64,000 nt of DNA, from positions 150,901 to 214,900 of the forward strand of contig NZ_NCQY01000002.1 of the NCBI RefSeq assembly GCF_002894645.1, written 5' to 3'. Origin of the DNA: Salinibacter altiplanensis (GTDB lineage: Bacteria > Bacteroidota > Rhodothermia > Rhodothermales > Salinibacteraceae). A program made the position numbers and the translations under genes. Under the pieces are notes generated by a model, which was given only the letters and a program-made list of their open reading frames with translations, had not been told where the DNA came from and ran no database searches. Position 1 is the first letter of the stretch; each line of letters starts with the position of its first letter. This document shows positions 25,487 through 30,640 of the stretch, piece by piece.

Positions 25487-26170
25487 TCACTCGGGCGTGC
25501 CGAACTCGAAGGTGAGGGTCGTCTGGCTTGAAACCGGCTGGCCGTTCTGCTGGGCGGGACGGAAGCGGGACCGTTGGGCCGCGACCAGGGCCGCCGCCTC
25601 TAGGCCATGGTCCAACTGTGCGACGGCGTGGACACGTCCCTCCTCCGCAAGCCGCCAGCGTTTGAGGACGGTCGCCTCTGTGACCCGTCCCGCCTCCGAT
25701 ACCTGCACGGCGACGCGGATTCGGGCCTGTATGCTCTCCTCACGGGCGGCGGCCGGATAGTTAGGCTGCACGGCCCGGAACAGGCGAGCGTTGGTGTCGG
25801 GCGTGCGGGCCGCGCGGGGCGTGTCGGTCGTGCCCTCCCGCAATTGGTCGTCGTCCTCGGGGGCGTCGACGGCCAGGGCGGACGTGCCAAACTCAAGCTC
25901 TTCTTCGATCACAACATTGTTGGGAACGACGTTCGGAGGCACCGGGGCCGGCGGGGGCGGCGTCTGCTCTCGAGACTGGGCCGTCGGCTGCACCTCATTG
26001 ATCTGGATGCGGTCCGGGCCCCGCTTCCCGAATGGGCCCTCTGGAGCCTGTGGGGCGGGAGCAGGCCACCAGCGTACGAGTGCAACGCCGAGCGCCAGCA
26101 CGACCGCCAGCGCCCCGAGAAGGCGTCGCCGGTACGCCTGATCGGACGTGGAGAAGGTAGAACGACGCAT
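25487..26170 (-). CDS. TonB-family energy transducer
   Basis: A 227-residue periplasm-spanning protein. One N-terminal membrane helix (LLGALAVVLALGVALVRWW) is followed by a Pro-rich linker and a C-terminal TonB domain starting QPNYPAAAREESIQARIRVAV and ending FRPAQQNGQPVSSQTTLTFEF, with the YP motif and final beta strand intact. It would couple the proton motive force to outer-membrane receptors; ExbB/ExbD are not in the window. It diverges from the car operon. Confidence 0.9.
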   Translation of the reverse strand: MRRSTFSTSDQAYRRRLLGALAVVLALGVALVRWWPAPAPQAPEGPFGKRGPDRIQINEVQPTAQSREQTPPPPAPVPPNVVPNNVVIEEELEFGTSALAVDAPEDDDQLREGTTDTPRAARTPDTNARLFRAVQPNYPAAAREESIQARIRVAVQVSEAGRVTEATVLKRWRLAEEGRVHAVAQLDHGLEAAALVAAQRSRFRPAQQNGQPVSSQTTLTFEFGTPE

Positions 26171-26389
26171 CGGACGGATGGGATGTGAGGCTTCGGCACC
26201 GTATCTTTAAAAACGGGGGCGAACATCTGTTTCTAGGCAGTAGACGCCACCATTCCCCAGTGTCGACACACGCGAAACATTGAGGGCTTCCGAAACGAGA
26301 CTTTGATCAAGAACGCTGGTTGCGAAACTTTTCGGGCAGCTTGTACTTTGATCGGCAGAATTTACGGTCCTCAATCAACACTGGGTGTC

Positions 26390-26452
26390 ATGCTCCCTGA
26401 CATTCCCCCCGACCCCGAGCCTTGCTCACCGGCACTGGCCTCATTGGATTAG
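26390..26452 (+). CDS. Candidate leader peptide of carA
   Basis: A 20-codon frame, ATG at 26390 and TAG at 26450-26452, reading MLPDIPPDPEPCSPALASLD. Six of twenty residues are proline, including a PPD triplet known to slow ribosomes. It ends nine bases before the stem of an intrinsic terminator and 80 bases before carA, so a ribosome at its stop codon would cover the left arm of the terminator. The ribosome-binding site is weak (GGGTG-type). No Arg codons occur, arguing against classic arginine attenuation. Expression is unproven. Confidence 0.45.
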   Translation: MLPDIPPDPEPCSPALASLD

Positions 26453-26461
26453 ACCTTCTGT

Positions 26462-26486
26462 CCTCCCCATTTGGGGAGGTTTTTTT
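26462..26486 (+). terminator. Intrinsic terminator in the carA leader (candidate attenuator)
   Basis: A 7-bp all-GC-rich perfect stem, CCTCCCC (26462-26468) with GGGGAGG (26473-26479), around a 4-base loop, is followed directly by seven T residues (26480-26486). The upstream neighbour tonB runs the other way, so no plus-strand gene needs termination here; the element sits between the carA promoter region and the carA start. Regulation by conditional readthrough is inferred. Confidence 0.8.
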
Positions 26487-26531
26487 ATGGCCTCAGGCGC
26501 CGCCGTCCGTCACCGATCCTCTACCCATACC

Positions 26532-27692
26532 ATGTCCCACACTTCGTCGTCCTCCACCGCCCATGACCCGGCCAAACTTGTTCTGTCCGACGGCACTGTC
26601 GTCTGCGGCGTTGCGCTCGGACAGCGGGGGCTCACCGGCGGGGAGCTGTGCTTCAATACGAGCATGACGGGGTACCAGGAGATCATGACGGATCCGTCGT
26701 ACTACGGTCAACTCATGATGATGACCCAGCCCCACATCGGCAACTATGGCGCCTCGGCCGAAGACATGGAGGCCGACGCGCCGATGGTGGCGGGCTTTAT
26801 CGTCCGCGACTCCCCTCGGCACTCCAACACCCAGGCCGATGAGCCCCTCGAGGCGTTCATGCGGCGCCACGGCCTCGTGGGCATCGCGGGGGTCGACACC
26901 CGGGCCCTCGTGCGGCACGTGCGGGACGAGGGCGTCATGAACGCCGTCATCTCGTCCGAGAACCTGGAGACGGAGGCGCTCAGGCAAAAAGCGAAAGACT
27001 GGCCCAGCATGGCGGGGCGTGAGCTGGCCTCGGAGGTAAGCACTGAGGGCCCCCATGTCTTCTGCGAGGGCACTGGGCCGCGCATCGCGGTGTACGACTT
27101 CGGGGTGAAGCAGAACATCTTGCGCTCGTTCCGCCGGCGCGGCTGTACGGTGAAGGTGGTGCCGGGCGACACGGACCTGAGTGACGTGCTCGCCTGGACC
27201 CCCGACGGGATCTTTTTCTCGAATGGCCCGGGCGATCCGCGCCCGATGGACGACGCCATCGAAACCGTGAGCGAGGCCATCGACACGGGGCTACCCCTCT
27301 TTGGAATCTGCCTCGGCCACCAGCTGATGTCACTGGCGGAAGGCATTGAGGTCTACAAGATGCACGTGGGCCACCGCGGGGCGAACCACCCGGTTAAGAA
27401 CCTGGATACCGAACGGGTGGAAGTGACAACGCAAAACCACGGCTTTGCGGTCGACCCCGAGTCGATTGCGCCGGAGGTCGCCCGCGTGACGCACGTCAAC
27501 CTGAACGACGACACGGTCGAGGGGCTTGAGTTCAAGACGTTTGCCGGCATGTCCTTGCAGTACCACCCGGAGGCCTCCCCCGGCCCGCACGACAGCCATT
27601 ACCACTTCAACCGGTTCATGGAGCTGGTGGCCGAGACGCGAGACGTGACGCTGCCGGAGAAAGCGACCGAGCCCGCGGTCGCGACGACGTGA
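26532..27692 (+). CDS. carA: Carbamoyl-phosphate synthase small subunit
   Basis: Glutaminase subunit that feeds ammonia to CarB for arginine and pyrimidine synthesis. The 386-residue length is normal. The N-terminal domain has MTGYQEIMTDPSYYGQ, and the C-terminal class I amidotransferase has the nucleophile in LFGICLGHQLMSLA near residue 265 and His/Glu in YHPEASPGPHD. The ATG at 26532 gives the family N terminus; an in-frame ATG at 26487 immediately follows the terminator T-run and is less likely. carB follows after 119 bases. Confidence 0.97.
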   Translation: MSHTSSSSTAHDPAKLVLSDGTVVCGVALGQRGLTGGELCFNTSMTGYQEIMTDPSYYGQLMMMTQPHIGNYGASAEDMEADAPMVAGFIVRDSPRHSNTQADEPLEAFMRRHGLVGIAGVDTRALVRHVRDEGVMNAVISSENLETEALRQKAKDWPSMAGRELASEVSTEGPHVFCEGTGPRIAVYDFGVKQNILRSFRRRGCTVKVVPGDTDLSDVLAWTPDGIFFSNGPGDPRPMDDAIETVSEAIDTGLPLFGICLGHQLMSLAEGIEVYKMHVGHRGANHPVKNLDTERVEVTTQNHGFAVDPESIAPEVARVTHVNLNDDTVEGLEFKTFAGMSLQYHPEASPGPHDSHYHFNRFMELVAETRDVTLPEKATEPAVATT

Positions 27693-27811
27693 GCGAGGAA
27701 CGGTTGGTTGGCAACGGCGGCACGGCAAAGACAGAGGCCTGAGATCCGTCGGGGGCTGAAAGGGCCCCGATGTTACTCCCCATCACGTATCACGCACCAC
27801 GCACGTCCCCA

Positions 27812-30640
27812 ATGCCCAAGCGCACCGATATCGAGACCATTCTACTCATTGGGTCCGGCCCGATTGTGATCGGGCAGGCCTGCGAGTTTGACTACAGCGG
27901 CAGCCAGTCGGCCCGGGCCCTGATGGACGAGGGCTACCGGGTGGTTCTGGTGAATTCCAACCCGGCCACCATTATGACCGACCCGCTGATGGCCGACAAG
28001 GTGTATCTCCGGCCGCTCACGCCGTCGTCCATCGCGCAGATTGCCCGCGAGGAGGCGCCGGACGCGGTGCTCCCCACGATGGGGGGGCAGACTGGGCTCA
28101 ACGTGGCACAGGACCTGAAGAAAAATGGATTTTGGGACGAGCAGGACATCGAGGTAATCGGCGTCGACATCGACACGGTCCAGATTACGGAGGACCGCCA
28201 GAAGTTCCGGACGCTGATGGATGACATCGGGCTCGATCAGTCGCGCAGTGACACGGCCAAGAGCCTGCTGGAGGCCAAAGAAATCACCCAGGAGCTTGGG
28301 GGGCTACCGGTCGTCATCCGCCCGTCGTACACGCTTGGGGGAGCGGGCGGGGGCATCGTCTGGAAGGAGGAGGAGTTCGAGGAGATGGTGACCCGCGGCC
28401 TGGAGCTCTCCCCGGCCCACCAGGTGCTGATCGACGAGTGCCTCTTCGGGTGGAAGGAGTACGAGTTGGAGCTGCTGCGCGACCCCAACGACAACGTCAT
28501 CATCATCGCCTCCATCGAGAACGTAACGCCGATGGGCGTGCACACCGGCGACTCGGTGACCGTCGCGCCGCAGCAGACGCTCACCGACAAGCAGTTCCAG
28601 CGGATGCGGGACGCGGCGATCAAGGCGATGAACTCGATCGGCACCTTCGCGGGGGGCTGCAACATCCAGTTCGCCTTCGAGCCGGGCACTGGGCGCATGA
28701 TCGTCATCGAGATCAACCCGCGGGTGAGCCGCTCCTCCGCCCTCGCCTCGAAGGCCACCGGCTATCCCATTGCGAAGGTGGCCTCGAAGCTGGCGATCGG
28801 CTACACGCTCGACGAACTGCCCAACGAGGTGACCGGCGACACGAGCGCCTGCTTCGAGCCGTCGCTCGACTACGTCGTCACCAAGGTCCCGCGCTTCAAC
28901 TTCGACAAGTTCGAAGGGGTAGACGAAGAGCTGACCACCCAAATGAAGGCCGTCGGCGAGGTGATGTCGATTGGGCGCACGTTCAACGAGAGTCTGCAGA
29001 AGGCCTGGCAGAGTCTCGAGATTGGGTACGCGGGGCTTGGCGCCGACCGCCCGGACGCCGCCCGCGAGACCGTTCGTGAGCGGCTGAAGAGTCCGCACTG
29101 GGACAACCTGCTGCACGTCCGTCATGCCTTTCGCTACGGGGCGAGCGTAGAAGAGGTGTACGACATCACCCAGATCGACAAGTGGTTCCTCTACCAAATT
29201 CAGGACCTCGTGGCGCTGGAGGACGAGATCCGCTCCACGCCCCTCCGCGAGATGGACACCCGCTTTCTCCGGGAGGCCAAGCGCGCGGGCTTCTCCGATG
29301 AGCAGATTGCCTTTCTCGTCCCCGAGGATGTGTCCGACCGCGAGGTGCGTGCCCACCGGACGGAAGAGGACGTGACCCCGGCCTACCAGCTCGTCGACAC
29401 CTGTGCCGGCGAGTTTCCGGCCGAGACGCCCTACTACTACTCCAGCTACGAGACCGTCAACGAAAGCGAGGTTACCGACAAGCCGAAGGTGCTCATCCTG
29501 GGCTCCGGCCCGAACCGCATCGGGCAGGGCATCGAGTTCGACTACTGCTGCGTCCACGGGGTGAAGGCCGCGCAGGAGATGGGCTACGAGGCGCTCATGC
29601 TGAACTGCAACCCCGAGACGGTGTCCACGGACTTCGACGTGGCGGACAAGCTCTACTTCGAGCCCGTGTTCTGGGAGCGGGTGCAGGACGTGATCGACTT
29701 GGAGCAGCCGGAGGGCGTCATCCTGCAGCTCGGCGGGCAGACGGCGATCAAGCTGGGCGAGCGGTTCGAGGAGGATGGCTTCCAAATTTTTGGAACCTCA
29801 TATTCGAAAATGGACCTCGTGGAAGACCGCGGCAAGTTTACGGACATTCTCCAAAAGCTGGAGATCCCGTTTCCGCCCTACGGCGTGGCCCACTCGGTCG
29901 ACGAGGCCCTCGAGACCGCCGACCGGCTCGGCTATCCCACGCTCATCCGGCCCAGCTACGTGCTCGGCGGTGAGGGCATGCGCATCGCGATCAATGAGGA
30001 CGAGGTGGCCGAGTACGTTCAGAATGTGCTGGACATGTACCCCGACAATGAAATCCTGCTCGACCGTTTCCTGGAAGACGCGGTGGAGCTGGATGTGGAC
30101 GCGATCTGCGATGGGGACGAGGTGTGGATCGCGGGCATGATGCAGCACATCGAGCCGGCAGGGGTTCACTCCGGCGACTCGACCGCCGTCCTGCCGCCGT
30201 TTAGCCTGTCCGATGAGGTGCTCGAGACAATCCGGGACTACGTGCGTGCCCTCGCGTTCGAACTGGATGTCCTTGGCCTCGTGAATGTACAGCTTATCGT
30301 CAAAGACGGAACGGTGTACGTCATCGAAGCCAACCCCCGTGCCTCCCGCACGATTCCCTTCATCGCCAAGGCGGCCGACATTCCGATTCCCGCCATCGCT
30401 ACCAAGGTGATGCTGGGCGAAAAGCTGGAGACCTTCCGCAGGCGCGGCGATCTGGAGTCGGACCTGGAGGACTACGCGATCAAGGAGCCGGTCTTCTCCT
30501 GGGACAAGTTCCCAGAGGTGCCCAAGGAGCTGGGGCCCGAGATGAAGTCGACCGGCGAGTCGATTGCGTTCGTGGAGTCGTTGGACGCCGACCAGTTCGA
30601 GCAGCCCTACGAAATGAAGGACCTGTACCTGTCCCGGTAG
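27812..30640 (+). CDS. carB: Carbamoyl-phosphate synthase large subunit lacking the allosteric domain
   Basis: Synthase subunit with two ATP-grasp halves. The first half has LLIGSGPIVIGQACEFDYSG and EINPRVSRSSALASKATGYP; the second has LILGSGPNRIGQGIEFDYC and EANPRASRTIPFIAKA. The product is 942 residues and stops just after GPEMKSTGESIAF..., the junction where E. coli CarB (1073 residues) enters its C-terminal MGS-like domain that binds UMP, IMP and ornithine. That domain is absent and no remnant is seen in any frame downstream. The stop codon sits in a 15-bp tandem repeat. Shorter CarB proteins occur in some Bacteroidota, so this may be lineage-wide. Confidence 0.95.
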   Translation: MPKRTDIETILLIGSGPIVIGQACEFDYSGSQSARALMDEGYRVVLVNSNPATIMTDPLMADKVYLRPLTPSSIAQIAREEAPDAVLPTMGGQTGLNVAQDLKKNGFWDEQDIEVIGVDIDTVQITEDRQKFRTLMDDIGLDQSRSDTAKSLLEAKEITQELGGLPVVIRPSYTLGGAGGGIVWKEEEFEEMVTRGLELSPAHQVLIDECLFGWKEYELELLRDPNDNVIIIASIENVTPMGVHTGDSVTVAPQQTLTDKQFQRMRDAAIKAMNSIGTFAGGCNIQFAFEPGTGRMIVIEINPRVSRSSALASKATGYPIAKVASKLAIGYTLDELPNEVTGDTSACFEPSLDYVVTKVPRFNFDKFEGVDEELTTQMKAVGEVMSIGRTFNESLQKAWQSLEIGYAGLGADRPDAARETVRERLKSPHWDNLLHVRHAFRYGASVEEVYDITQIDKWFLYQIQDLVALEDEIRSTPLREMDTRFLREAKRAGFSDEQIAFLVPEDVSDREVRAHRTEEDVTPAYQLVDTCAGEFPAETPYYYSSYETVNESEVTDKPKVLILGSGPNRIGQGIEFDYCCVHGVKAAQEMGYEALMLNCNPETVSTDFDVADKLYFEPVFWERVQDVIDLEQPEGVILQLGGQTAIKLGERFEEDGFQIFGTSYSKMDLVEDRGKFTDILQKLEIPFPPYGVAHSVDEALETADRLGYPTLIRPSYVLGGEGMRIAINEDEVAEYVQNVLDMYPDNEILLDRFLEDAVELDVDAICDGDEVWIAGMMQHIEPAGVHSGDSTAVLPPFSLSDEVLETIRDYVRALAFELDVLGLVNVQLIVKDGTVYVIEANPRASRTIPFIAKAADIPIPAIATKVMLGEKLETFRRRGDLESDLEDYAIKEPVFSWDKFPEVPKELGPEMKSTGESIAFVESLDADQFEQPYEMKDLYLSR

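Follow-up and report, generated by a model that had tools for sequence, protein, structure and literature searches.

Carbamoyl phosphate is the shared first step of pyrimidine and arginine synthesis. The closest described relative of the carA leader reported here is the pyrBI (pyrL) leader of E. coli and Salmonella, in which, as at carA, an ORF lies beside or runs through the intrinsic terminator of an early pyrimidine gene, and in which, as proposed here, termination can be prevented by a nearby ribosome. Another attenuator, that of B. subtilis pyrG, depends on the reiterative addition of G residues to the 5′ end of its transcript. In E. coli, a stop codon a few bases before a terminator leads to near-full repression of that terminator, whose function recovers when the stop lies beyond about 27-30 nt (PMC4824070), and when EF-P is absent, termination at E. 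coli pyrL increases if polyproline is encoded ahead of the terminator (PMC5021804). The carA RNA motif of Polynucleobacter, found in beta-proteobacteria, is an extended hairpin beside the ribosome-binding site and a riboswitch candidate (PMC8632094). No described carAB attenuator of Rhodothermota or Balneolota was found in the literature searched.

The window analysed here is a 64,000-nucleotide stretch of one Salinibacter altiplanensis contig, in which carAB is preceded by a short ORF and an intrinsic terminator (Table 1). The original prediction described a 20-codon ORF, a nine-base gap, a perfect hairpin and seven Ts upstream of carA, with no plus-strand gene ahead of the leader; every coordinate was confirmed, and the neighbouring gene lies on the minus strand. 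We conclude, with a probability of about 0.85, that these elements form a real and conserved transcription attenuator of carAB. Control of this attenuator by the ribosome, in the manner of pyrBI, is the most likely mechanism, and we would give it even odds.

Table 1. Features of the carAB leader region, in positions of the window
Feature	Position	Strand	Description
Upstream gene, TonB-family protein	25487-26170	-	divergent from carA
Inferred promoter	26319-26350	+	GTTGCGAAAC ... TTGTACTTTG; Bacteroidota-like TTG / TAnnTTTG type
Inferred transcription start	near 26355-26358	+	proposed 5′ end of the leader RNA
Candidate leader ORF	26390-26452	+	ATG 26390, 20 codons MLPDIPPDPEPCSPALASLD, TAG 26450-26452
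Spacer, leader stop to stem	26453-26461	+	nine bases
Terminator hairpin	26462-26479	+	CCTCCCC-ATTT-GGGGAGG, 7 pairs, 6 of them G-C; computed -13.6 kcal/mol
T7 tract of intrinsic terminator	26480-26486	+	inferred 3′ end of a leader RNA of about 130 nt
carA, carbamoyl-phosphate synthase small subunit	26532-27692	+	NCBIfam TIGR01368, 461.7 bits
carB, large subunit	27770-30640	+	956 aa; NCBIfam NF003671, 1432.5 bits; Pfam

The carAB locus of S. altiplanensis

As the upstream gene is divergent, the terminator does not close a plus-strand gene; it lies between the first gene of the operon and a promoter that is inferred from conservation. The promoter-like block is the best-conserved stretch upstream of the leader in the relatives L002-L007, and TAnnTTTG-like sites occur at the corresponding position in several other Rhodothermales families. 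Comparison of upstream regions showed that the start assigned to carA is consistent with those of its relatives. Two further in-frame starts, GTG 26385 and ATG 26487 (in the context GGGGAGG-T7-ATG), open into carA. The latter was considered as a carA start under control of the hairpin, with GGGGAGG as its Shine-Dalgarno sequence, and was rejected because neither the ATG nor its frame is conserved: L002 has a stop in this frame, and other relatives have GTA or GTG in place of the ATG.

Window-level statistics are by themselves weak evidence for the terminator. A simple scan of the window yielded two terminator-like sites (nested forms of one) against 1.6 expected, the fold of the Salinibacter leader is ordinary (z = 1.0), and no known RNA family in Rfam was matched at the gathering score except a tRNA. 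The exact terminator pattern is single in the 3.59-Mb S. altiplanensis genome, allowing up to three mismatches.

The C-terminal MGS (allosteric) domain was not detected in CarB, nor in carB of any of 41 Rhodothermales searched, and genome-wide MGS matches in Rhodothermales resemble purH and mgsA by size. Loss of this domain was entertained as a cause of attenuation and discarded: no MGS was found in a carB-sized frame in the Balneolales and Bacteroidia genomes tested, and the Bacteroidia, being alike in this respect, hence provide no contrast.

Terminator conservation across Rhodothermales

We located carA in whole genomes of Rhodothermales and examined 96 upstream regions. An intrinsic terminator was present in 86 of them, representing 15 families, and mostly lay 40-110 nt before the matched protein start. 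The same test found zero or one terminator per 96 regions in five shuffles and none upstream of pyrR in 26 genomes, and these counts support the predicted attenuator of carAB. The stem in Rhodothermales reads GCCTTCCC-loop-GGGRAGG followed by a T run. CCTTCCC/GGGRAGG is nearly constant (with the 5′ arm variants CCTTCCC, CCTCCCC, CCTTTCC and CCTTCTC), while the leader sequence varies between genomes. Six Ts of the run are invariant in 49 of 49 aligned relatives.

Changes on both sides were seen at six of the eight stem pairs, a level reached in none of 500 shuffles, and the loop is 3 to 14 nt long. Stem pairs persist through double changes. This range of loop lengths points to an RNA hairpin and not to a spaced DNA operator; a palindromic DNA operator was rejected on account of it. 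The Salinibacter fold also shows a helix between the leader 5′ end and the bases that precede the stem, but this helix did not hold across 47 leaders (mean z 0.06) and was likewise dropped.

In most of 41 genomes, the best genome-wide match to a covariance model of the stem is the one ahead of carA. Eighteen other matches were inspected and were mostly ordinary gene-end terminators with other stems, for which reason a regulon sharing the carA-type terminator was rejected. Three of these 18 secondary matches, in L111, L114 and L115 (G030, G020 and G037, from three families), precede an apparent metY, the gene for O-acetylhomoserine sulfhydrylase. The terminators there have a stem of their own in common, which reads CTCTTCC or a near variant of it ... 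GGAAGGGG and is followed by T6-T7, and they represent another candidate attenuator.

Six genomes of family f14 (L043, L046, L047, L052, L066 and L072) lack the carA terminator, and f14 genomes carry in its place a conserved block with GTGAAG.TATTGAGACCGG.CG and ATGCCTAA. The terminator loops of family f5 (e.g. L044, L050 and L025) carry (A)GGTT, complementary to AACC at the base of the stem, so that a competing hairpin may form.

Two PyrR-like genes were found in S. altiplanensis (G000:C16:449438-449980 and G000:C19:44517-44999), one of which adjoins pyrB. Autoregulation of the pyrR operon by PyrR via a leader of this kind was rejected in view of the 26 pyrR upstream regions, none of which has a terminator. 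In several genera (L206, L207, L227), only some 4-6 bases separate a promoter-like element, TAACTTT(T/C/G), from the pyrR ATG, which suggests that the pyrRB mRNA may be leaderless in those genera.

Leader ORFs in Rhodothermales and Balneolales

The exact 20-codon ORF is retained in six of the seven closest genomes (L001-L004, L006 and L007). Leader changes are more coding-like in the frame of this ORF than in the other two, at borderline significance (P 0.05-0.10): the codon-substitution test gave P = 0.049 for L001-L003 and P = 0.097 for six leaders, which weakly supports the leader peptide of the Salinibacter clade as coding. The original prediction had proposed an alignment with relatives, in which the hairpin proved conserved and the frame held among these closest genomes, but the frame is not kept throughout Rhodothermales and is absent in some families. 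In genus g23 of family f15 and in family f12, the inferred start and the stem are separated by about 25-40 nt, which is too short for a leader gene. The Rhodothermus-like genus g11, on the other side of the ledger, has a leader reading MIGS..GQLHFRRFRGG*, in which five bases separate the stop from the conserved CC of the stem and substitutions look coding-like in the codon-substitution test (P = 0.018).

Among 69 Rhodothermales clusters, 31 had ATG/GTG ORFs whose stop falls inside the stem or no more than 15 nt from it, compared with 16.4±3.2 expected, and the corresponding numbers for ATG-only ORFs were 17 and 9.3±2.6. No excess was found for ORFs crossing the terminator (20 vs 26 expected). 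The excess of ORFs ending at the stem is partly due to a TGA abutting the stem, the A of which pairs with the U-tract; with the paired A allowed for, stops at -3 to -5 occur in 17.4 genera vs 8.5 expected. T content is slightly raised in only the last 10 nt before the stem (0.31 vs 0.19-0.28). The genomes compared share a conserved terminator with an inferred promoter upstream of it, and the juxtaposition of ORF and terminator stands as a statistical trend. Judged from these patterns, the leader peptide probably exists in some lineages, but as neither the ancestral nor the sole control.

In the sister order Balneolales, the carA terminator has a different stem, AAATCCGAC...GTCGGATTT, which occurs at most once per genome in the 15 genomes searched. 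Fifty-six leaders were grouped into 40 clusters, with dinucleotide shuffles as the null. In 34 of the 40 clusters, an ATG ORF starts 20-75 nt before the stem and stays open through the entire hairpin, compared with a shuffle expectation of 9.2±2.5. The frame through the hairpin differs among groups, which implies that no special codon is required. T is enriched in the last 30 nt ahead of the stem (0.35-0.39 vs 0.20-0.23 farther upstream). In the leaders L130-L194, the 12-nt loop holds an inner helix (CGG/CCG, CGA/TCG or CGT/ACG) which, by eye, stays paired through changes. Twenty further genomes of the phylum were examined upstream of carA: two, of family f16, have another stem, AAGCGGC/GCCGCTT, family f17 has the Balneolales stem in one of three genomes, and in the rest a terminator is absent or of unrelated sequence.

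The pyrBI-like layout that had been predicted is therefore upheld in kind, with ORFs that run through the terminator in Balneolales and tend to end at the stem in Rhodothermales, but not as an ORF conserved across the order. Two sister orders that differ in this way offer a natural experiment in how ribosomes control terminators, and the contrast between them makes the rule of such control testable.

Proposed mechanism, alternatives and known systems

Termination at the carAB leader, its control by the ribosome and the signal to which it responds are what we infer from these features. RNA polymerase would start near 26356 and transcribe the leader (region 26319-26531), where the hairpin and its U-tract, if free to fold, would end transcription at about 26486, carAB mRNA arising only by read-through. 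A ribosome close behind the polymerase, or waiting at the leader stop, would block pairing of the 5′ arm and so permit read-through. When pyrimidine nucleotides are short, the polymerase would move more slowly along the pyrimidine-rich leader and the ribosome could catch up, and when pyrimidines are plentiful the polymerase would outrun the ribosome and terminate. The 9-nt distance from stop to stem is within the E. coli range (PMC4824070), which makes ribosome occlusion physically sound; of the prediction that a paused ribosome covers the left arm, this spacing stands, but a ribosome at the leader stop would cover only the edge of that arm. Occlusion would work with any terminator and hence leaves the constancy of the stem sequence unaccounted for; the stem may be constant because its strength is tuned or because it acts as a direct sensor.

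If the stem were such a sensor, it would itself be recognised by a trans-acting factor (an RNA-binding protein or an RNA), or its pyrimidine 5′ arm would be caught by a G-rich 5′ end, a mechanism that has been proposed for B. subtilis pyrG, and the ribosome would be unneeded. One terminator would then serve leaders that range from about 25 nt to about 130 nt and may or may not hold a leader gene, which agrees with a stem that is nearly constant while all else varies, is unique per genome in most cases and is retained in very short leaders. However, no regular G-run is present at the inferred start sites, the stem of Balneolales differs, and no known RNA family in Rfam is matched. The obvious candidate would be PyrR, but four genomes that retain the terminator (G014, G021, G029 and G035) yielded none, and no such leader precedes pyrR. 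That the constant stem is a carAB-specific sensor, with a factor or nucleotide signal acting on its pyrimidine-only arm, appears doubtful. Less probable still is that the terminator is passive and only protects carA from read-through out of upstream sequence, the true promoter lying between terminator and carA. Throughout the order only terminator and gene are conserved and leader ORFs are not, as this explanation would have it, but the upstream gene is divergent in S. altiplanensis, the conserved promoter-like block sits upstream of the leader, and a scan of the 45 GC-rich nucleotides from the T7 tract to the carA ATG gave no promoter-like match on the plus strand.

Within ribosome control, the pyrBI analogy, the pyrimidine-only 5′ arm and the T-rich tract in Balneolales point toward pyrimidines, and we regard a pyrimidine signal as more likely than arginine for S. 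altiplanensis. The original prediction had argued this from a leader without Arg codons, which is correct for the S. altiplanensis ORF and extends to L002-L004, but the argument is weak, as Arg occurs in L005, L006, L007 and L014. An arginine-sensing leader would stall ribosomes on Arg codons when charged tRNA-Arg is low, thereby covering the stem and causing read-through, and carAB does also supply arginine synthesis. The coding-like g11 leader contains Arg and stops near the stem, ORFs end in RPRRR* or RPCCR* in f13, RERPPR* in L014 and NR.M.R* in f4, and over 39 genera Arg triplets keep phase with the stem (P = 0.001, the best value among 20 amino acids). Yet leader ORFs are no richer in Arg than shuffled leaders (z = 1.6), because Arg is common in GC-rich sequence, and Balneolales ORFs cross the stem in different frames, some of them without Arg. 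Arginine sensing is thus unlikely as the general explanation, though the phasing may keep it viable for some relatives. The suggested coupling to EF-P, whereby slow translation of PPD at low EF-P would uncouple ribosome and polymerase and lower carAB expression, has a precedent (PMC5021804), and the IPPD of the S. altiplanensis leader corresponds to IPPE in L002-L004 and L006. It is nevertheless highly improbable, since L005 has IPSE, L007 has lost Pro-Pro, and Pro is not enriched across Rhodothermales (z = 0.95).

Pyrimidine-responsive ribosome control, our preferred reading, concerns an enzyme, carbamoyl phosphate synthetase, that serves two pathways, and it bears on how Rhodothermota and Balneolota balance them. 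Among known systems, the Polynucleobacter carA motif is alike in being a structured RNA directly upstream of carA and differs in that the structure here is a plain intrinsic terminator. PyrR attenuators resemble this system only in the adjoining pyrR and pyrB of S. altiplanensis; the carA leader does not match the Rfam PyrR element at the gathering score, and four genomes that keep the terminator yielded no PyrR. The carA terminator is presumably comparable to that of pyrG in its pyrimidine-only 5′ arm and its promoter-proximal place before a pyrimidine gene, but the inferred start region, ATCGGCAG, is without GGG plus pyrimidine, and there is no regular GGG at the predicted starts of relatives.

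Amino-acid leader attenuators of the trp/his/leu type, including a possible Arg version, likewise have a short ORF before a terminator, and some relatives have Arg codons in it. They differ in that no antiterminator was found in the Salinibacter clade and in that the carA-leader stop is at the stem, where a ribosome would hinder and not favour termination. Compared with pyrBI, the gene is carA and not pyrB, the Salinibacter ORF stops 9 nt before the stem whereas that of pyrBI runs through it, and the GC-rich Salinibacter leader is without an obvious long U-run. The layout of pyrBI is shared by the Balneolales leaders, in which the ORF passes through the terminator and ends near the gene.
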